In this document: positions 9,050 to 60,700 of the stretch, piece by piece | How positions within the stretch are numbered: the first letter of the stretch is position 1 | Layout: each line of letters begins with the position of its first letter | Assembly: GCA_015709695.1 (NCBI GenBank) | Contig: CP054183.1 | Location: 1,178,001 to 1,242,000 of the forward strand | Reading direction: 5' to 3' | Source: Gammaproteobacteria bacterium | GTDB taxonomy: Bacteria; Pseudomonadota; Gammaproteobacteria; Steroidobacterales; GCA-2729495 | DNA: 64,000 nucleotides | The notes under the pieces: generated by a model | Database searches by the model: none | Seen by the model: only the letters and a program-made list of their open reading frames with translations | Told to the model about the DNA's origin: nothing | Made by a program: the position numbers and the translations under genes

Positions 9050-9661
9050 ATGGGCCTGTACCAGAACCGCGTCCTGCCCTGGCTGATAGACCGCGGCATG
9101 CGCAACCGGATCATGGCCAGCTACCGTCCCCGGGCTCCGGGCCGGGCGGCGGGGCGCGTGCTGGAGCTGGGCATCGGTGCCGGACTCAATCTGCCCTTCT
9201 ACACACCAGCTGTAACCCATCTGTTCGCGCTGGAGCCATCGGACAGCTTGCGCGACAAGGCAGCCACCCTGGCTCCGCTGGCGCCATTTCCCGTGTCCCT
9301 GATCGGCGCTGGGGCCGAAGCGATCCCGCTGGAGAACGCATCGGTCGACACGGTCGTCACCACGTGGACGTTGTGTTCGATCCCGGATCTCGCCGCCGGC
9401 CTGGCCGAAGCCCGGCGCGTGCTCAAGCCGGACGGACGGCTGCTGTTCCTCGAACATGGACGATCCCCGGACGCCGGTGTCGCGCAGCGCCAGGACCGGC
9501 TGGCACCAGTGCTGCACCTGCTGGCCGGCTGCCATCCCAATCGCCGCATCGATCAGGCCATAGAAGCCGCGGGCTTCCGGTTTACCGCCATCGAAAGAAC
9601 CTACATCGAGGGCCCCCGGTTCCTCGCCTACCATTTCATGGGCGAGGCTTGCCTGGCCTGA
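9050..9661 (+). CDS. Class I SAM-dependent methyltransferase
   Basis: A 203-residue Rossmann-fold methyltransferase. Motif I is LELGIGAGLNLPFY (about residues 42-55), followed by an acidic strand end at ALEPSD, the post-motif region ENASVDTVVTTWTLCSI, ARRVLKPDGRLLFLEHG (motif III area) and a variable C-terminal segment. The LCSIPD and LEHGRS signatures resemble UbiE/phospholipid-type methyltransferases, but the substrate cannot be set. A GGAG ribosome site lies 7 bases before the ATG (actGGAGacac). Confidence 0.85.
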   Translation: MGLYQNRVLPWLIDRGMRNRIMASYRPRAPGRAAGRVLELGIGAGLNLPFYTPAVTHLFALEPSDSLRDKAATLAPLAPFPVSLIGAGAEAIPLENASVDTVVTTWTLCSIPDLAAGLAEARRVLKPDGRLLFLEHGRSPDAGVAQRQDRLAPVLHLLAGCHPNRRIDQAIEAAGFRFTAIERTYIEGPRFLAYHFMGEACLA

Positions 9662-9719
9662 CCTGGACAGCGTCGATGGGCTTGGGCTGGCGGGGCGTGT
9701 CCGCTAGACTGCCGCAGCC

Positions 9720-10928
9720 ATGAGCGACAGCAAGACCAAGCGCCCGCTGGAGGGCTTCCGCGTACTGGAGCTGGGGCAGCTGCTGGCTGGTCCCTTTACC
9801 ACCAGCATCCTCGGCTATTTCGGCGCAGAGGTCATCAAGATCGAGCCGCCAGGCACCGGGGATCCGATCCGCACCTGGCGCGTCATGAGGGACGGCGTGT
9901 CTCTCTGGTGGCACAGCCTCGGCCGCAACAAGAAGTGCATCACCGTGAACCTGCGCTCCGACAAGGGCCGCGACATCGTCCGGCAGCTCGCTGCAAGGTC
10001 GGACATACTGGTGGAGAACTTCCGTCCGGGCACCATGGAGAAGTGGGGCCTCGGTCCCGATAATCTGCGCAAGAGCCATCCGGAACTGATCTACGCGAGG
10101 ATCTCCGGCTACGGCCAGACCGGACCCTATGCTTCCCGGACCGGTTTTGCATCGGTCTGCGAGGGCGTCGGTGGCTTCCGCTATGTCAATGGCTTTCCGG
10201 GTCAGGCTCCGGTACGGCCGAACCTCAGCCTGGGCGATACCCTGGCCGCCGTACACAGTGTCATCGGCATTCTGCTGGCCTGCGTCCATCGACTCAAGGA
10301 CGGCGGACATCAGGGTCAGGTCATCGACACCGCCATTTACGAAGCCGTCTTCAACATGATGGAAGGCATCGTGCCGGAGTACTCGGGGGCAGGTGTGGTC
10401 CGCGAACCTTCGGGATCCACCCTGACCGGCATCGTGCCAACCAACACCTACCGATGCAGGGATGAACGGTTCGTCATCATCGGCGGCAATGGCGACTCGA
10501 TCTACAAGCGTCTGATGAACGCCATGGGGCGCGCTGACCTGGCCAATGATCCTCGCATGACCGACAATGCTGGCCGGGTCCGGCACGAGAAGGAACTCGA
10601 TGCCGCCATCTCTGCATGGACCAGTACCCTGACTTCGGTCGAGGTGCTGGCGATACTCGATCGGGTCGACGTACCTGCCGGGCCTATATACAGCGTCGTC
10701 GACATGATGAACGACGAGCACTTCAAGGCAAGGGGCCTGTTCGAAACAGTGGAAGTCCGGGGTGAGCCGATGACCATCCCGGCGATGGTGCCACTGCTCA
10801 GCGATACGCCTGGACGGACGGAATGGCCGGGACCCGAAATCGGCGCCCACAACCATGAAATCCTTGGCAACCTCCTGGGCTACGGCCCCGATGCCATCGA
10901 GGCACTCCGTCGCGACGGAGTCATCTGA
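9720..10928 (+). CDS. CaiB/BaiF-type class III CoA-transferase
   Basis: A 402-residue CoA-transferase of family III, which moves CoA between carboxylic acids through an aspartyl-CoA thioester. Landmarks: LEGFRVLELGQLLAGP at the start, FGAEVIKIEPP, GRNKKCITVNLRSDKG, LVENFRPG, RISGYGQTGPY, the catalytic Asp in SLGDTLAAVHSVIG, and the C-terminal DVPAGPIYSVVDM and NHEILG. Length and motif order are complete. It is 59 bases after the methyltransferase gene and ends convergently with an 8-base overlap with the Rieske gene. The acid substrate is unknown. Confidence 0.92.
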   Translation: MSDSKTKRPLEGFRVLELGQLLAGPFTTSILGYFGAEVIKIEPPGTGDPIRTWRVMRDGVSLWWHSLGRNKKCITVNLRSDKGRDIVRQLAARSDILVENFRPGTMEKWGLGPDNLRKSHPELIYARISGYGQTGPYASRTGFASVCEGVGGFRYVNGFPGQAPVRPNLSLGDTLAAVHSVIGILLACVHRLKDGGHQGQVIDTAIYEAVFNMMEGIVPEYSGAGVVREPSGSTLTGIVPTNTYRCRDERFVIIGGNGDSIYKRLMNAMGRADLANDPRMTDNAGRVRHEKELDAAISAWTSTLTSVEVLAILDRVDVPAGPIYSVVDMMNDEHFKARGLFETVEVRGEPMTIPAMVPLLSDTPGRTEWPGPEIGAHNHEILGNLLGYGPDAIEALRRDGVI

Positions 10929-15959: not shown

Positions 15960-16172
15960 CGCGCGGCTGACGAGTCCGGACACATCTCCCATGCGAATCG
16001 AGGCAGAGATCGCACCCTCTGTACTTGACATAAAACCAGGTCTGAATTTGACATTCATCGACATCTGATTACGTTTATTTAACAATATGTTGATAGTGAT
16101 TTCTAAATTTCTTCCTATGAATCAGCTGCTAAGTGATGCGGATAAGCCGTGGTTTCTGCTTACGTAATCAGC

Positions 16173-16201
16173 TTGACGGACCGGAAGTTTGGGAATATTT
16201 T
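16173..16201 (+). promoter_or_regulatory. Sigma70-type promoter of the first DUF6502 gene
   Basis: TTGACG (16173-16178), exactly 17 bases, then TATTTT (16196-16201). The predicted start site is near 16208, giving a leader of only about 18 bases with no clear Shine-Dalgarno. It lies in a 266-base AT-rich gap (15960-16225) that also holds two further TTGACA boxes at 16025-16030 and 16048-16053, 23 bases apart. Confidence 0.55.
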
Positions 16202-16225
16202 CCTTAACCAAAGAATTTATGTTTA

Positions 16226-17062
16226 ATGCCTTCCGTTGACCTGAAGCCATCGATTCTGGCTGCTTACAAGCGGCTCCTAAAGCCACTGATAAGGATCCTG
16301 ATCAGAAACAACGTCTCGTACGCGGAGTTCAGCGAGGTCGCCAAAGATGTCTTCGTGGAGGTCGCAGAACACGACTTTCAGTCACCCGAAAAGAACATGA
16401 CCCAGGACCGCATCGCGATCCTGACTGGTCTAACAAAGAGTGAAGTGCAGCGATTGGTTGTGGAGAGGGGGAAAACACACCGAGGTGATTCCTCGAACAT
16501 CAAACGAATCGCCCATCTCTTGTCCGGTTGGCACACCGACCCACAGTTCACGGGGCCATATGGGTTGCCGCTTGATATTCCGTACACCGGAGACGATGAA
16601 AAGACTTTCGCAAAGCTTGTAAGCCGCTATACGGGGGATGTGTCGGCTCAATCCATGCTTGCTGAGCTGCTCAGATTTGAACTCGTAAGGGAGACGGATG
16701 AAGGACGTATCAAGGTATTGACACGAACCTTTCTCCCGCAAGCGAACGCACCCGAGAGCCTTGACAGGCTTGGCCATGCCGTTCGCAACTTTGTGGACAC
16801 CATAGATCACAACCGTAAGGAGCCGATTCCCGAGAAACGCCTGTTGGAGCGAACAGTGACTGCAGATAGCGGTGTCTATCTGTCGGATCTACAAGAGCTA
16901 CAAACCTACGTGCGCGAACGCGGACAGCTTCTTCTTGAAGAAATTGATGACTGGCTGAGCAAACACGAACCGACAGGAAGTTCTAGCTCTGAGCCGGTTG
17001 TTCACACAGGTGTTGGAATCTACCACTTTATTCAACGAAATGATGATTACGGAGCAGCTTAG
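16226..17062 (+). CDS. DUF6502-type HTH protein, copy A
   Basis: A 278-residue protein of unknown function. The N-terminal 80 residues are helical (AAYKRLLKPLIRILIRNNVSY, EFSEVAKDVFVEVAE) and contain an HTH-like segment at about 59-80 (TQDRIAILTGLTKSEVQRLV), so DNA binding is likely. The middle has a conserved GWHTDPQF, FAKLVSRYTGDVS and ELLRFELVRE; the C-terminus ends VVHTGVGIYHF. Copy B at 18138-18962 shares all these landmarks in the same order. GC content is clearly lower than in the flanks. The next gene starts 42 bases downstream. DUF6502 is recalled as the family; an alignment is needed to confirm. Confidence 0.8.
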   Translation: MPSVDLKPSILAAYKRLLKPLIRILIRNNVSYAEFSEVAKDVFVEVAEHDFQSPEKNMTQDRIAILTGLTKSEVQRLVVERGKTHRGDSSNIKRIAHLLSGWHTDPQFTGPYGLPLDIPYTGDDEKTFAKLVSRYTGDVSAQSMLAELLRFELVRETDEGRIKVLTRTFLPQANAPESLDRLGHAVRNFVDTIDHNRKEPIPEKRLLERTVTADSGVYLSDLQELQTYVRERGQLLLEEIDDWLSKHEPTGSSSSEPVVHTGVGIYHFIQRNDDYGAA

Positions 17063-17104
17063 TCCCTCCGAAGAGACTGGGAACAGCGTGCAAGAGGAGC
17101 ATTC

Positions 17105-18061
17105 ATGCAGATTCACCTAGGAAGGTCAGGTCGCGGCACAGCAATCACTGCTGCGTTCTCTTTTGGTTATCTGGTCGCCTTCTGGACTCCTCACGTAAAT
17201 GCAGAAGCAGTCGAGACAGTGTCCGGGTCGATTGCCCATGAGTTGGTGGACCAACTGCAAGAAGGTTACGACCAATCCGATGGAAATCTCCTCTTTGTTG
17301 GCCCTGGACTTGTTACTTCCGACGAAACTCAAACGATGGTGACCGTGCTAGGCCAAACAGCCGTAGTTGGTTTCGAGACCAACTTCCCCAGGGGCCTAGT
17401 CACACCAGGTGAATACGTAGCGGTATTCGGTCATCTTGATCCGCAAGGGCACGCCGAGGCCGCATCAATCATTCGCCTAGGAGGGAACTACTCCACGGGA
17501 AGCTCTGTAATCTACCTCCAAGGAATCGTTTTGAGCCTAACCGACACAGGCATCGCACAAGTTGGCGAAGCCCGGGTTGATCTTGCGCAGGCCTACGGCG
17601 GCGATGGGATGTCAGTTCTAAAGCAGGATGATATCGTGGAGATCATGGGTTTCGAGGTGACTCGCCCAGATGCATCATCACTTCTTGTCGCTACCAGCGC
17701 AAGAAATGCGGGCGATGGCAGTGGCGTCCGCGGCATCACGGGCAGCGGCGTCCGCGGTATCACCGGCAGCGGCGTCCGCGGCATCACCGGCAGTGGCGTC
17801 CGCGGCATCACCGGCAGCGGCGTCCGCGGCATCACCGGCAGCGGCGTCCGCGGCATCACCGGCAGCGGTGTCCGCGGCATCACCGGCAGCGGCGTCCGCG
17901 GCATCACCGGCAGCGGTGTCCGCGGCATCACCGGCAGCGGTGTCCGCGGCATCACGGGCAGCGGCGTCCGCGGCATCACCGGCAGCGGCGTCCGCGGCAT
18001 CACGGGCAGTGGCGTCCGTGGCGTCAGCGACAGCGACAGCGACAGCGACAGCGAAGGCTAG
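17105..18061 (+). CDS. Exported octapeptide-repeat protein (GSGVRGIT x13, acidic tail), DUF5666-like N-terminal part
   Basis: A 318-residue protein with a GAGGAG ribosome site. Residues 1 to about 33 are a signal peptide (basic start, ITAAFSFGYLVAFWT core, cleavage likely after VNA). A beta-rich globular part follows (roughly 34-200) with VTVLGQTAVV, PGEYVAVFGHLDPQGHAEAASI and DDIVEIMGFEV, resembling the short OB-like units of DUF5666. From residue 205 come 13 copies of the octapeptide GSGVRGIT (last copy GSGVRGVS), then an acidic DSDSDSDSEG. Each unit carries one Arg, so the repeat is positively charged and the tail negative. Function unknown; a surface or periplasmic scaffold is possible. 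Confidence 0.85.
   Translation: MQIHLGRSGRGTAITAAFSFGYLVAFWTPHVNAEAVETVSGSIAHELVDQLQEGYDQSDGNLLFVGPGLVTSDETQTMVTVLGQTAVVGFETNFPRGLVTPGEYVAVFGHLDPQGHAEAASIIRLGGNYSTGSSVIYLQGIVLSLTDTGIAQVGEARVDLAQAYGGDGMSVLKQDDIVEIMGFEVTRPDASSLLVATSARNAGDGSGVRGITGSGVRGITGSGVRGITGSGVRGITGSGVRGITGSGVRGITGSGVRGITGSGVRGITGSGVRGITGSGVRGITGSGVRGITGSGVRGITGSGVRGVSDSDSDSDSEG
17717..18028 (+). repeat. 13 tandem 24-bp repeats encoding GSGVRGIT
   Basis: Thirteen in-frame 24-base units start at 17717 and recur exactly every 24 bases. Units differ only at synonymous positions (AGT/AGC, GGC/GGT, ACC/ACG) until unit 13, which is degenerate (GSGVRGVS). A 6-base repeat GACAGC follows to about 18052. Gain or loss of units would keep the frame. 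Confidence 0.97.
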
Positions 18062-18121
18062 AAGGAACTCAGCTACCCTTAATGGGTCGTTGCTATTTTC
18101 GCCTGGGCAGTTAGTACATTA

Positions 18122-18149
18122 GCTAACTTGTGCTTCGTTAGCCTTTTTC
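18122..18149 (+). terminator. Rho-independent terminator after the repeat-protein gene
   Basis: A 6-bp stem GCTAAC/GTTAGC (18122-18127, 18137-18142) with a 9-base loop is followed by CTTTTTCTTC. It overlaps the last codons of the convergent DUF6502 copy B. An alternative stem with GTTAG at 18110-18114 exists. Confidence 0.55.
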
Positions 18150-18962
18150 TTCGTTCTCGAAGTAGTAGAGACCAACGCCTACATGATAATAGGGCCCCGC
18201 TTTTCGCTGTTTGCGGCCTGACCGCCACTGAAAACTAGTCAGATAGTCGTCAATCTGTCGACCAAATCCAGCCACAATTGCTGAAATGCTGTCCTTTACT
18301 AGTTTTACGTCGGAAGCTGCGATGCCACCCGTGTGTACGATCCTTTGAATGTGCGGTGACTTGATATTCTGCGGGTCTGCATTGAAGCAGATGGTTTCTG
18401 TGAGCCGCCGCAATCCGAATTGCAACCCTTCGATAAGTTTGCTGCTAGCTGAATCGGGTACGTATTCTCGTACGGCAGGAAGAAGCTTCCGTCCAAGCAC
18501 AAAACGCAAAGCACCAGATCGACTAAGTTCGCGTTCGATCGTACGAGCGGGAATATCACCCGTGACAGATTTCACCAAAGTCACAAACGATTTAGGACCC
18601 GCAAATGCGAGCGCCTTTGGATACCCATTCGTATCTAAGTACGTAGTATCGGTATGCCAGCGATGTAGAACCTCTGCGGGAATATTGCGGTACGTTAGAG
18701 CGGATAACGAATTCTTCTTCAACTCAACACGAATACGGCTCACCTCCTTCCTTGACAGTCCCGTCATCACCGCCACGCGCGCAATGTTTGTTGGACGGTT
18801 TCGCACCCCGTAGTCTGCCGAGGCGGCCTCGACGAAAGCGCGCTTGGAAAGCCTGGCGAATTCGGTGTAACTGACACCACAGCGCAATAAGGTCCGGGCG
18901 AGTGGTAGCAGCACGCCCATCAGGACATTGCGAATCCGCTCCTGGGTTACATCTGCCTTCAT
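18138..18962 (-). CDS. DUF6502-type HTH protein, copy B
   Basis: A 274-residue relative of copy A. Shared landmarks in the same order: LLPLARTLLRCGVSYTEF, an HTH-like segment at about 57-78 (NIARVAVMTGLSRKEVSRI), HRWHTDTTY, FVTLVKSVTGDIP, ERELSRSGALRF, and a C-terminus YYHVGVGLYYF. The two are clearly divergent, not a recent duplication. The ATG lies one base after the ligA stop and has AGGGTGA upstream, so it probably rides on the smc-zipA-ligA transcript. Codon use is more AT-rich than in ligA. Likely a DNA-binding regulator; targets unknown. Confidence 0.8.
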   Translation of the reverse strand: MKADVTQERIRNVLMGVLLPLARTLLRCGVSYTEFARLSKRAFVEAASADYGVRNRPTNIARVAVMTGLSRKEVSRIRVELKKNSLSALTYRNIPAEVLHRWHTDTTYLDTNGYPKALAFAGPKSFVTLVKSVTGDIPARTIERELSRSGALRFVLGRKLLPAVREYVPDSASSKLIEGLQFGLRRLTETICFNADPQNIKSPHIQRIVHTGGIAASDVKLVKDSISAIVAGFGRQIDDYLTSFQWRSGRKQRKAGPYYHVGVGLYYFENEEKG

Positions 18963-18963
18963 T

Positions 18964-21006
<2,043 letters not shown>

Positions 21007-21660
21007 TCAGGATGCGTGCAGCTTGTGCTGCAACTGGATGACCTCCTCTCGCATGAACCGCTCGCGCTGGATGCTGAGGCGACTACCATGCTCGTCGAGC
21101 AGCTCACCTTCCAACGTGGTAGCTAGAGCGTGTGCGGTGGACAGCATGTCGTCAAATGCGGCCAGGACATCCTTCGGGCCCGGTATCGTCAGGAAAATAC
21201 TGACCCCGTGATAGCGTGCGGCCGGCATGCTGGCCAGATCGAAGGAACCCGGCTCCGCCAGACTGGCTACACTAAATAGGCTCCGCCGCTCATCGGTGGA
21301 GTCATGACGATGAAATATCCCATACTGGCCATGCTGCAGGCCCGCCCCCATGAGCGCCAGAAGCAGTGCTTCGCCTCCAAATGGAGCCGATCCGCGCCCC
21401 GTAAGGCGCACGGTCAGGATTTTCTCAGGCACCTTGATCTCGCGGCCCGGTGGCTTCTCCATCTCCTGAAGTGGACCCTGGGCTTCTGTACCGACAACTT
21501 CTGCATCCTTGCTGTCAGCCGCAAGCTGGGGGATACGGCGACGCAGCAGGTCGGTCGCATTGAGTGCCTGCCCTCCGGCTGATTCCCTTCTCGATAGCCA
21601 GAAAACCAGCAGGAGAATCAGAACGCCGCCGACAGCGAGAAGCCAGCGAATCTCCGACAC
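21007..21660 (-). CDS. zipA: Cell division protein ZipA
   Basis: A 217-residue protein with the ZipA layout: a single N-terminal membrane anchor (residues about 5-22, LLAVGGVLILLLVFWLS), a short linker, and a C-terminal domain that binds the FtsZ tail (ILTVRLTGRGSAPFGGEALLLALMGAGLQ, GIFHRH, SLAEPGSFDL, GVSIFLTIPG). The E. coli protein is about 330 residues because of a long Pro/Gln linker, which is mostly absent here. It stabilises the Z ring at the inner membrane. The smc-zipA-ligA order is typical of gammaproteobacteria. Confidence 0.92.
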   Translation of the reverse strand: MSEIRWLLAVGGVLILLLVFWLSRRESAGGQALNATDLLRRRIPQLAADSKDAEVVGTEAQGPLQEMEKPPGREIKVPEKILTVRLTGRGSAPFGGEALLLALMGAGLQHGQYGIFHRHDSTDERRSLFSVASLAEPGSFDLASMPAARYHGVSIFLTIPGPKDVLAAFDDMLSTAHALATTLEGELLDEHGSRLSIQRERFMREEVIQLQHKLHAS

Positions 21661-31245: not shown

Positions 31246-33765
31246 TCACAAGGTTCTGGCTACCTCGATCCGCTCGAAGCACTCGATCTGGTCGCCAACC
31301 CTGACATCATGGTAATTGCGCACGCCGATACCGCATTCCGTTCCAGCACGGACTTCCGTCACATCGTCCTTGAATCGCCGCAGTGAATCGAGCTCACCCT
31401 CGAATATCACGACATTATCGCGCAGGACGCGCACAGGATTGCTGCGCTTCACATACCCATCGACCACCAGGCACCCGGCTACGCTACCGAACTTCGGCGA
31501 CCGGAAGACATCCCGAACCTCCGCCAGCCCGACTATCTGGTCGCGTACTTCCGGAGCCAGCATGCCGGTCATTGCTGATCGCACGTCATCGATCGCCTGA
31601 TAAATAATGCTGTAGTACCGAACGTCGACGCCTGTAGCCTTGATGGCATCTCGCGCCGCGCCATCTGCCCGGACATTGAAACCGATGATCGTGGCACCGG
31701 ATGCCGCCGCCAGGTTGACATCCGATTCAGTGATGCCACCTACACTGCTGCCGATTACCTTGACCTGTACCTCGCTCGTAGCGAGTTTGGCCAGCGCATC
31801 GCGCAATGCCTCCGAGCTACCATGGACATCGGCCTTGATCAATAGCTGCACGGACTTCACGCCAGACTGCAGCTGGCTAAATACATCTTCAAGCTTGGAG
31901 GACTGCTGCTGGGCCAGTTTCGTATCCCTGGTTCGCGCCTTGCGCAAATCGGAAAGCTCGCGTGCCTGCCGCTCGTCAGGCAGAACCACGGCGTCATCTC
32001 CCGCTGCAGGAATTCCCGAGAGACCGAGCACCACAACGGGTGTTGATGCACCTGCCTCCTTGACGGGATTGGAAGCGGCATCGTACATGACACGCACGCG
32101 GCCGTACTCCTGACCCGCTAGCAGCACATCGCCCTGGCGCAGCAGTCCGCCAGTGACCAGCACCGTTGCCACGGCGCCGCGGCCCTTCTCCAGGCCAGAT
32201 TCGATCACCACTCCAGTAGCCGGACCATCTCCCGGAGCAGCAAGATCCAGCAACTCGGCTTGCAACAACAGGGATTCCAGCAACTTGTCCACTCCCTCCC
32301 CGGTGCGGGCCGATACGTTCACAAATAACGTTTCACCACCCCACTCTTCGGGCACTACTCCCCGCTGAACGAGTTCGTTGCGAACGCGCTCCGGATCGGC
32401 GTCGGACTTGTCGATCTTGTTGATAGCCACGACAATGGGAACACCGGCGGCGCGGGCATGCTGGATCGCCTCTTCGGTTTGTGGCTTCACACCATCATCT
32501 GCCGCCACTACCAGGACCACAATGTCCGTCACCTTTGCGCCGCGAGCGCGCATCGCCGTGAACGCCTCGTGGCCTGGCGTATCGAGAAACGCAATCTGGC
32601 CATTCGGGGTTTCAATTCGATAAGCGCCGATATGTTGCGTAATTCCGCCCGCCTCGCCTGCAGCAACCTTGGTGCTGCGGATGAAATCCAGTAGCGAAGT
32701 CTTGCCGTGGTCGACATGACCCATGATCGTTACAACCGGAGGTCTGGACCGTAGCTCGCCGGCAGCACCGACCCTAGCGAGGATCTCCGCCTCGAGACCG
32801 CCGCTCTGGGCTGCCCTGGGTTCATGACCCATCTCTTCAACAACCAGAGTCGCCGTATCCTGGTCTATCACCTGATTGATGGTGGCCATGATACCGAGCT
32901 TCATCAGTACCTTAATGACCTCACTGCCCTTTACGGCCATCTTCTGCGCCAACTCGGAAACCTTGATGGATTCCGGAATCTCTACCGCACGCACCACCGG
33001 AGTCGTCGGCCGCTCGAATCCGTGGCGAGCGTCCACTGTGACTGCACCTCCGCGGCGGGTCGGGCGCTTCTTTTTTCTGCGGCTGCTGATGTCGCTGGCC
33101 ACATGCAGCTCCTGCCGGCCATAGCGCGTTGACTTGTCATCAACCGGAGTACGCTCGGCTTCCCCGCCTGTCTTCGCCCAGCCGCGGGTATCTCCAGCCG
33201 CCCGCTCGCGCTCGCCAGTCTCTCGCTTCTTCGCCTCCTTCTGCCGGCGGGCTTCCTCCGCCGCCTTGGCTTCCTCCTCGGCCTTTAGGCGGGCCGCCTC
33301 CTGCTCGCGCGCCTCCCTCTCATGGCGCTCGCGCTCGACGCGCTCAAGCTCCGCACGCTCACGCCGCTCCTGCTCGAGGCGGGATTCCTCTTCCTCGCGG
33401 CGCTTTCGATCGACCTCTTCCTGCTGCTGCCGAGCCTCCTTCTCGAGTTCGTCACGCTTCACGTAGGTGCGCTTGCGTCGGATCTCGACGTTGACCGTCC
33501 GTGCCCTACCCTGATTGCTGGCCAGGCGAATCTCGCTTTGGGTGCGCCGTTTGAGCGTAATCTTCTTAGGCGCCCCGCCTGCTGCATTCTCCTCGCCATG
33601 ACCATGGCTGCGGCGGAGATGAGTCAACAGCTCCATCTTGGCATCGTCGCTGATGACAGCGTCAGCGCCGCTGACGCTGATTCCCGCTTCATCAAGCTGC
33701 ACCAGCAAGCGCTCGACGGGTACCTTCAGCACCTCGGCAAACTGGGCTACGGTCACATCCGACAT
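31246..33765 (-). CDS. infB: Translation initiation factor IF-2
   Basis: An 839-residue IF2, which brings fMet-tRNA to the 30S subunit and drives subunit joining. N-terminal IF2_N fold ([19 protein letters not shown]), a long charged Glu/Arg/Lys coiled region (residues about 100-200), a second IF2_N-like region ([20 protein letters not shown]), the G domain with [17 protein letters not shown] and NKIDK, then domains II to IV ([25 protein letters not shown]). Starts 29 bases after nusA. Confidence 0.97.
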
Positions 33766-57754: not shown

Positions 57755-60700
57755 TGCAACAACTCCTTGTGCAGATCCTGCAGGCGATTGACGTCGCCAT
57801 TGTCCAGGTGGTCCAGCGCCATGGTGGTGGCCACCGCCGCGGCAAGCGTGGTGTAGTAGGTCACGCGATGACGAACCGCCGCGGAACGGATCGGATGGGA
57901 TTCACGGATCGCCTGCTTGCCTTCCGTGGTGTTCACGATGAGTGACAGCTCGTCGTTCTTGATCATGTCCACCACGTGGGGCCTACCTTCCCGCACCTTG
58001 TTCACGCGACGGCAAGCCACCCCACCCTCGGCAAGCGCCACCGCGGTACCGTTGGTGGCGACGATGTCAAAGCCACGCTCCAGCAGGATGCGGCCAAGCT
58101 TGACCACGCCCGTCTTGTCCCGATCGCGCACCGACAACAGCGCGACACCACGCCGCGGCAACAACACCCCCGAAGCCAGCTGGGCCTTGGCGTAGGCCTC
58201 GGCGAACGAGCGGCCGGTTCCCATGACTTCACCGGTCGATTTCATCTCCGGTCCGAGGATGGGGTCCGCATCCGGGAACTTGTTGAACGGGAAGACCGAC
58301 TCCTTCACCGCGAAGTATGGCGGCACGCGGGCGGTGGTGATGCCCTGCTCCACCAGGCTCTGCCCCACCATGACGCGAGCAGCAATCTTGGCAAGCGGGA
58401 GTCCGATTGCCTTCGAGACAAAAGGTACCGTGCGTGATGCGCGCGGGTTGACTTCCAGGACGTAGATGATGCCGTTCTGGATGGCAAACTGCGTATTCAT
58501 CAGGCCTATGACGCCCAGCGACTGGGCCATCGCAGCCACCTGACGTGACAACTCTTCCTGTACTTCGCGGGACAGCGTGGCCGGCGGCAGGGAGCAGCCT
58601 GAATCGCCGGAGTGGATCCCTGCCTGCTCTATGTGCTCCATGATGCCGCCGATGAAGACGTCATTTCCGTCACAGATGCAGTCGACATCCACCTCTACCG
58701 CCAGGTCGAGGAACCGGTCGAGCAGCACCGGGCTGTCATGGGACACGGCCACTGCCTTGCGCATGTAGGCGCGCAGATCGTCTTCGCCATGGACAATCTC
58801 CATGGCACGCCCTCCGAGCACGTACGAGGGGCGAACCACCAGCGGGAAGCCCACCTCCTGGGCAAGCTGGACGGCATCATCCTCGTTGCCCGCGGTGCAG
58901 TTGGGCGGCTGCTTCAGGTTGAGCCGCTTGAGCAACTGCTGGAACCGTTGCCGATCCTCGGCCACGTCGATGGAATCCGGCGAGGTGCCGATGATTGACG
59001 CCCCGGCAGCTTCCAGGCTCTTTGCCAGTTTCAGCGGAGTCTGCCCGCCATACTGGACGATGACACCAGCAGGCTTCTCAAGATCCACGATTTCCATGAC
59101 GTCCTCGAACGTCAGGGACTCGAAGTACAGACGGTCCGAGATATCGAAATCGGTGGAAACCGTCTCCGGATTGCAGTTGACCATGATGGTCTCGAACCCC
59201 GACTCCTTGAGCGCCAGGGCCGCGTGGACGCAGCAGTAATCGAATTCGATCCCCTGTCCGATGCGGTTGGGACCACCGCCCAGAATCATGATCTTGCGCC
59301 GGTCGCTCGGTTCTGCCTCGCACTCCTCCTCGTATGTCGAGTACAGATAGGCCGTCGAAGTGGCGAACTCGGCGGCACAGGTATCGACGCGCTTGTACAC
59401 CGGCCGGACACCAGCCTTGTGCCGGTTCTGCCGGACCGCACTCTCTTTGGTCCCGAGGAGTCGCGCCAGCCTGCTGTCGGAGAAGCCCTTGCGCTTGAGC
59501 ATCCGCAGGCGATCAGCCTTGAGCACGCTCAGGCCATCACCACGCACGGCAGCCTCGCAGCTCACCAGATCCTCGATCTGCGCCAGGAACCAGGGGTCGA
59601 TGCGGCTCAGTTCGCCAACCTCCGCCAGTGACAGGCCATGGCGAAAGGCATCGGCCACGTAGAGCAGCCGGTCTGGCCCCGGCATGCGCAGTTCATGGCG
59701 CAGGTGGTCCATGTCCTCGGCGGAGGGTTCCTGCGGCAGCCGCTCGACCAGTCCATCGATCCCGGTTTCCATGCCACGCAGGGCCTTCTGCAGCGACTCC
59801 TGGAAGGTGCGGCCCATGGCCATCACCTCGCCCACGGACTTCATCTGCGTTGTGAGGCGGATATCGGCCCCGGGAAATTTCTCGAAGGTGAACCGCGGGA
59901 TCTTCGTGACGACATAGTCGATGGTCGGTTCAAAGGATGCCGGGGTGGCTCCGCCGGTGATCTCGTTCCGCAGCTCGTCGAGCGTATAGCCGATGGCGAG
60001 CTTCGCGGCGACGCGGGCGATCGGAAAACCGGTGGCCTTCGAGGCCAGCGCAGAGGAGCGTGAAACGCGCGGATTCATCTCGATGACCAGCACGCGGCCA
60101 TCCACGGGATTGACGGCGAACTGGACGTTGGAGCCGCCGGTATCCACGCCGATGCGGCGCAGGACCGCAATCGATGCGTCACGCAGGCGCTGGTACTCCT
60201 TGTCGGTCAGGGTCTGCGCAGGTGCCACCGTGATGGAATCGCCGGTATGTACCCCCATCGGATCGAGATTCTCGATGGAGCAGATGATGATGCAGTTGTC
60301 GCTGCGGTCCCTCACCACCTCCATCTCGAACTCTTTCCACCCCAGCACCGATTCCTCCAGCAGTACCTCGCTGGTTGGCGATGCCTCGAGCCCGCGGCTG
60401 ACGATCTCCTCGAATTCGTCGCGGTTGTAGGCAATGCCGCCGCCGCTGCCGCCCAGCGTGAACGACGGACGGATGACGATGGGGAAGCCGATGTCCGGCT
60501 GGATCCGCAGCGCATCTTCCAGGGTATGCGCTACCGTCGCACGCGGCACTTCCAGCCCAATCTCCTGCATGGCGTCACGGAACAGCTCGCGGTCCTCGGC
60601 CGTATCGATCGCCTGGCGCGATGCACCGATCAACTCGACATCGAACTTCGCCAGCACCCCTTCGCGAACCAGGTCCAGCGCGCAATTGAGCGCGGTCTGC

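Follow-up and report, generated by a model that had tools for sequence, protein, structure and literature searches.

A trio of genes, here called A, R and B, was found in a 64,000-nucleotide stretch of the genome of Gammaproteobacteria bacterium (GenBank assembly GCA_015709695.1, contig CP054183.1, positions 1,178,001 to 1,242,000), hereafter the window. Genes A and B encode proteins of the family DUF6502, and gene R, located between them, encodes an exported-type repeat protein related to the family DUF5666. Because DUF6502 genes are paired with such partners, have a dyad over the -10 box and give a helix-turn-helix (HTH)-like structure model, DUF6502 is read as an autoregulator, which most likely controls its own operon and hence the exported DUF5666-type partner; from these observations we infer the binding and the sign of the control. 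Taken together, the data are best explained, with somewhat better than even confidence, by DUF6502 acting as a DNA-binding autoregulator whose operon also encodes an exported partner of DUF5666 type. The genes concerned are as follows:

16226-17062, + strand: gene A, DUF6502, 278 amino acids, predicted HTH-type autoregulator (PF20112, A clade, model and fold comparison)
17105-18061, + strand: gene R, 318 amino acids, exported-type protein with a DUF5666-related, putative oligonucleotide/oligosaccharide-binding (OB)-type domain and an octapeptide array
18138-18962, - strand: gene B, DUF6502, 274 amino acids, convergent to R and beginning directly after ligA (B clade, ligA synteny)
18964-20994, - strand: ligA, conserved neighbour of B
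21007-21660, - strand: zipA, conserved neighbour gene

Gene R starts 42 bases past the end of A. Proteins A and B score 163.8 and 92.6 bits against PF20112 (DUF6502 in Pfam; curated cut-off 27), and 72 of 255 aligned positions are identical between them (28%, E 4e-31). The first-pass annotation, which had placed two homologous DUF6502-type genes on both sides of a repeat protein, thus agrees with the open reading frames (ORFs) and with the homology of the two copies. The source genome (3.1 Mb, one contig) contains three DUF6502 genes. The name DUF6502 is used in the annotation of Rhizobium plasmids and was found nowhere in the literature searched, which was one collection of papers; we know of no function for this family, and its autoregulation is proposed from the present data.

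Pairing of DUF6502 with DUF5666 and conservation of the trio

Among 94 genomes of the class, DUF6502 was found in 29 and DUF5666 in 32; both families were present in 26 genomes, DUF6502 alone in three and DUF5666 alone in six (Fisher p 2e-14). DUF6502 was absent from 60 sampled genomes of the phylum outside the class. Within two genes of 150 DUF6502 genes, a DUF5666 ORF was present in 81 cases, an exported tandem-repeat ORF in 47 and either of them in 102; of 519 single control genes, each separated from DUF6502 by four genes or more, 0 were themselves DUF5666 and 2 of the repeat kind. These counts come from one rule for test and control genes, and a rule laxer for the test genes had given 113/150. 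In a held-out draw, comprising 37 loci of new genomes, six of them from genera already used (those of G079, G101, G138, G143 and G151), and two Rhizobium plasmids, a DUF5666 ORF was located no more than 400 bp downstream on the same strand in 28 of 39 cases, with an overlap of exactly 4 bases in 17 of the 28; two of the 39 new matches (G306:C71 and G306:C10) were left out. Two Rhizobium plasmids carry an annotated DUF6502-DUF5666 pair. The neighbourhood enrichment for repeat-protein or DUF5666-like genes, which the first-pass annotation had proposed as a check, is therefore strong. In the source genome, all five DUF5666 matches belong to one open frame adjoining the third DUF6502 gene. Pfam detected five or six DUF5666 stretches in the four partners scanned and one in those R proteins that pass. 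No function is given for DUF5666 in the available portions of the four papers naming it.

The loci compared comprised 80 fetched regions and then 40 more, 35 of these from the class-wide search; ORF calling relied on a simple script, so that start codons are unsure, and export was judged by hydropathy. Ten partial, contig-edge or unfetched matches were left out of the relatives set (G005:C165, G019:C16, G027:C53, G028:C22, G031:C160, G033:C124, G034:C109, G036:C18, G037:C33 and G051:C30) and two out of the class-wide set (G110:C28 and G064:C144). At least one DUF6502 gene was present in 52 of 60 relatives. A quick midpoint-rooted tree of 142 DUF6502 proteins separates those of the order into clade A (32 rows), clade B (39) and clade M (39), with support, given as the Shimodaira-Hasegawa-like approximate likelihood ratio test only, of 93, 95 and 93, respectively; two of the 39 M rows are unsure long branches, and both rows of G046 are long branches. 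In this order the three DUF6502 paralogues are old. The partner of M is a multi-domain DUF5666 lipoprotein, the A-R operon begins with A, and B is linked to ligA.

An exported-type array protein follows A on the same strand for all 32 A-clade genes, one per genome (30 by the automatic rule, G042 with its broken R among them, a rule which picked 0 of 519 control genes of the same loci, and two, L106 and L033, by eye). A second DUF6502 gene is present in 23 of these 32 loci, being convergent with R in between in 18, divergent in one (L046) and arranged as B-A-R on one strand in four (families f2 and f7); in the remaining nine loci the contig stops within ~1.3 kb downstream of A. A DUF6502 gene lies directly behind ligA or slightly overlaps it, on the same strand, in 31 of 32 fetched ligA-holding loci of several families, a count silent on ligA genes without B, because the loci were fetched for holding DUF6502. 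Tree distances between the same genomes are ~1.4 times larger for B than for A (median of 378 pairs, 28 genomes). The 32 genomes with the A-R pair belong to seven families (f1, f2, f5, f7, f9, f10 and f12). The trio, suggested as a unit at first pass, thus recurs, and it looks like an ancient inheritance that many relatives have retained.

The exported-type protein R and its array

The following parts were distinguished in R:

17105-17203, + strand: signal-peptide-like segment, residues 1-33, VNA/EA, read from the sequence by eye
17279-17497, + strand: region modelled as an OB-type barrel, residues 59-131 (profile comparison and model)
17717-18035, + strand: tandem array, 24-base unit in 13.3 copies, encoding GSGVRGIT (repeat detection, unit comparison and constraint test)
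18021-18058, + strand: DS-rich acidic tail (sequence)

The earlier description of a secreted-type protein with about 13 GSGVRGIT repeats and an acidic tail is borne out by these features as far as they can be read from sequence; the DS-rich tail was seen in none of the other R proteins printed for comparison. Whole R gave no match at E<=1 in Pfam, NCBIfam or PHROGs, and its first 200 residues reached 17.2 bits against PF18914 (DUF5666), under the cut-off of 27, so that window R is called DUF5666-related and not a member; a profile-profile comparison with DUF5666 (hhalign) gave a probability of 97.4% and E 1.3e-11. The N-terminal parts of the R proteins matched PF18914 at E<=0.1 in 13 of 17 cases; the same gene exceeds the DUF5666 cut-off in L040 (37.3 bits) and L048 (31.6 bits), and no DUF5666 row was obtained in the Pfam scan for the R proteins of L035, L047, L049 and L050. 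Pfam Collagen, above cut-off in relative L048, had no match in window R. Sequence searches of the PDB yielded nothing useful, the sole rows being at E 0.06-0.8. R is likened to the DUF5666 lipoproteins by the profile of its globular part and, tentatively, by the OB-type model, and its unit resembles their GI-x-G-T-G motif; it differs in having one DUF5666 stretch (in the proteins that pass), usually no lipobox (present in 3 of 29 R proteins versus 43 of 54 multi-domain DUF5666 partners) and an amplified array.

The motif GI-x-G-S/T-G is found near the N-terminus of 15 of 54 canonical DUF5666 partners and of 14 of 26 held-out ones, versus 0 of 519 controls. The 29 motif-bearing partners (of 80) contain one copy in 27 cases and four in two (G113 and G124), intermediates in which the four copies lie in front of or include the canonical one; a Rhizobium DUF5666 partner contains two. 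In those partners for which a lipobox could be assigned, the motif mostly starts 7-16 residues after the cysteine (range 7-59). The R units keep the GI-x-G-S/T-G core, and the array would accordingly have arisen by amplification of a motif that is single in many canonical DUF5666 lipoproteins, an origin supported by sequence. The DUF5666 proteins with several GIGGTG-type copies, in L177 (G113), L171 (G124) and Rhizobium (L190:5738-6799), come from outside the order, the last with an apparent twin-arginine signal, read by eye.

Across 29 R proteins, the units combine a shared core, with conserved hydrophobic-x-Gly, and a lineage-specific remainder, with periods of 8, 9, 10 and longer. Differences within arrays are mostly synonymous, the ratio of nonsynonymous to synonymous differences (pN/pS) being 0-0.32 in 14 of 14 arrays tested (14 of the 29 R proteins were taken, and codons with more than one change left out). 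Residues 241-310 of R, within the array, have a predicted local distance difference test (pLDDT) of 84-90, the highest confidence in the structure model. A comparable repeat, VxGxxxxx, forms the C-terminal triple-stranded beta-helix of T4 gp5 (PMC4576200). Window R and many relatives share with it the period of 8 and the hydrophobic-x-Gly; elsewhere among the 29 R proteins, however, units of 9, 10 or more residues occur, so that the octad is not general. Gp5_trimer_C reached 25 bits in one R relative, versus a cut-off of 30.9. None of five array strings was found in the collection of papers searched.

R is modelled as an exported OB-plus-rod protein. That its array is instead a disordered spacer, with no folded rod, is a less likely competing view: the unit is rich in Gly and Ser and AlphaFold is possibly biased on repeats, but the hydrophobic-x-Gly core is conserved, the units are under constraint and model confidence is highest in the array.

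In the majority of the 29 R proteins the DUF5666-like part comes first and the array second; the reverse holds for L035, L036, L037, L046 and L053, and L044, L045 and L061 have repeat copies on both sides. In G042 (L052:8763-9856), R seems broken, the array ORF stopping at 9356 and the DUF5666-like part occupying ORF 9416-9856, through an assembly error or a frame change within the repeats. R runs past the contig end in draft contigs L055, L058, L061, L064, L070, L076, L083, L093, L096 and L106, and L033 has a run of N within the array, as if the array breaks assemblies. The window contains two further short tandem repeats, at 33250-33285 and 59494-59539 (18- and 24-base units, ~two copies each).

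Promoter and proposed operator

Upstream of A, the following elements were found:

16173-16201, + strand: promoter-like TTGACG-N17-TATTTT (sequence; aligned in eight genus members)
16188-16207, + strand: proposed operator, degenerate form, TTTGGGAATATTTTCCTTAA, over the -10 (alignment of genus members)
16196-16221, + strand: near-invariant element of 26 bases that extends from the -10 in the direction of the A start (genus alignment)

The inverted repeat TGKG-N8/9-CMCA lies over the -10 in 32 of 103 regions upstream of A, M and other DUF6502 genes versus 6 of 167 control promoters, for which, unlike the tested ones, an 80-base upstream gap was required; in the held-out set it was found in 8 of 39 regions, with 0.47 expected from shuffles. 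By clade, this pattern was found in 6 of 32 regions for A (p 0.005), with no enrichment upstream of B (3/38, p 0.22). A general scan for 10-base inverted repeats showed enrichment for M (14/39) and other genes (9/32) and none for A (2/32), relative to controls (16/167). The window operator TTTGGGAATATTTTCCTTAA agrees at six of eight core positions by hand count and is not among the matches of the TGKG-N8/9-CMCA scan. No wider regulon was found in the genome: the 26-base element has a single copy even when 3 mismatches are tolerated, and WTTGGG-N8-CCCAAW, if one mismatch is allowed, gave 5 sites (each on both strands), against 2 per strand for the reversed control and without the window's own site. 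An ATG in the conserved element opens a short frame overlapping the start of A (16219-16239), the length of which varies among genus members.

Autorepressed operons with the operator over the -10 are a general kind. The DUF6502 dyad has the same placement, covering the -10 immediately ahead of the gene for the regulator; the differences are that the partner is an exported protein and that a second paralogous regulator is kept beside R. Regulation of the repeat protein by DUF6502, surmised at first pass, is favoured by the promoter evidence in the form of control of the partner operon. Rather less probable is that DUF6502, instead of a transcription factor, is a cytosolic protein that is co-translated with the partner and helps in assembly, translation or export. 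Such a factor would suit the 4-base overlaps and the strict pairing, as well as a weak DUF6502 structure model that leaves the part after residue 170 unaccounted for, but the HTH-like segments, suggested by that model and by fold comparison, and the dyad that DUF6502 genes have over the -10 in front of themselves argue for a regulator.

Remaining alternatives and the proposed mechanism

We consider it improbable that the trio serves self-sensing, as an envelope or colony-identity system. In such a system the exported array, whose unit varies by lineage around a conserved core, would be read back by the DUF6502 pair, as the export state of R or as released octapeptides, and B would link this to the zipA-ligA gene group. 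Peptide signalling appears less probable still. In that view R would be a polyprotein, processed extracellularly into a species-specific octapeptide for which A and B serve as intracellular receptors. Many near-identical units, a unit varying between genera on a constant core and two flanking paralogous regulators would fit, but most R proteins keep a putative OB-type domain beside the array, unit length is not fixed at 8 and reaches 10 and more, and regulators of this type also have multi-domain DUF5666 lipoproteins with one motif copy or none as partners.

The trio is bordered by an alpha/beta hydrolase gene on one side and ligA on the other, and the guanine-plus-cytosine (GC) content per kb across 16001-19000 is 49, 60 and 52%, compared with 60-63% in the preceding and 58-60% in the following two kb. 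The block is thus AT-richer than its flanks, as first described, with its middle kb at 60%; its interruption of conserved genes holds as a position but not as an event, since the place of B after ligA is itself conserved. A recently acquired mobile or defence cassette, inserted between housekeeping genes for toxin, defence or transfer, is highly improbable: lower GC, the grouping of unknown genes and DUF6502 relatives on plasmids would favour it, but the ligA position is constant and not variable over several families, and A, B and M form separate clades. The possible cassette of the first-pass annotation is therefore unsupported as a recent insertion. A phage, plasmid-borne or defence origin was also rejected, given the lack of matches: no relative was found among phage records with A as query or among viral contigs with A or B, the trio region had no plasmid match, and PADLOC gave none. 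On the other side, 72 plasmid records do carry DUF6502 relatives of <60% identity; 65 of these records are from Rhizobium and 42 are typed conjugative.

Under the favoured autoregulator reading, A, possibly with B, would bind the dyad that covers the -10 in the A-R promoter, and in this way set the expression of R. R would be exported, its OB-type domain bearing the array amplified from the GI-x-G-S/T-G motif, as its sequence suggests; the array most likely folds, according to the model, as a rigid beta-solenoid rod. As to the role of R in the cell, we infer that it may serve as a spacer, fibre or binding rod, whether periplasmic, at the surface or within the matrix. B lies close behind zipA-ligA and therefore may, speculatively, modulate A-R from there and couple its expression to that gene group.

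This reading gives DUF6502 and DUF5666, both families without an assigned function, a shared role that can be tested. In the trio, nature also provides a set of arrays that have a core motif in common but differ in unit, length and position, which is useful for understanding how repeat rods arise and stay constrained.
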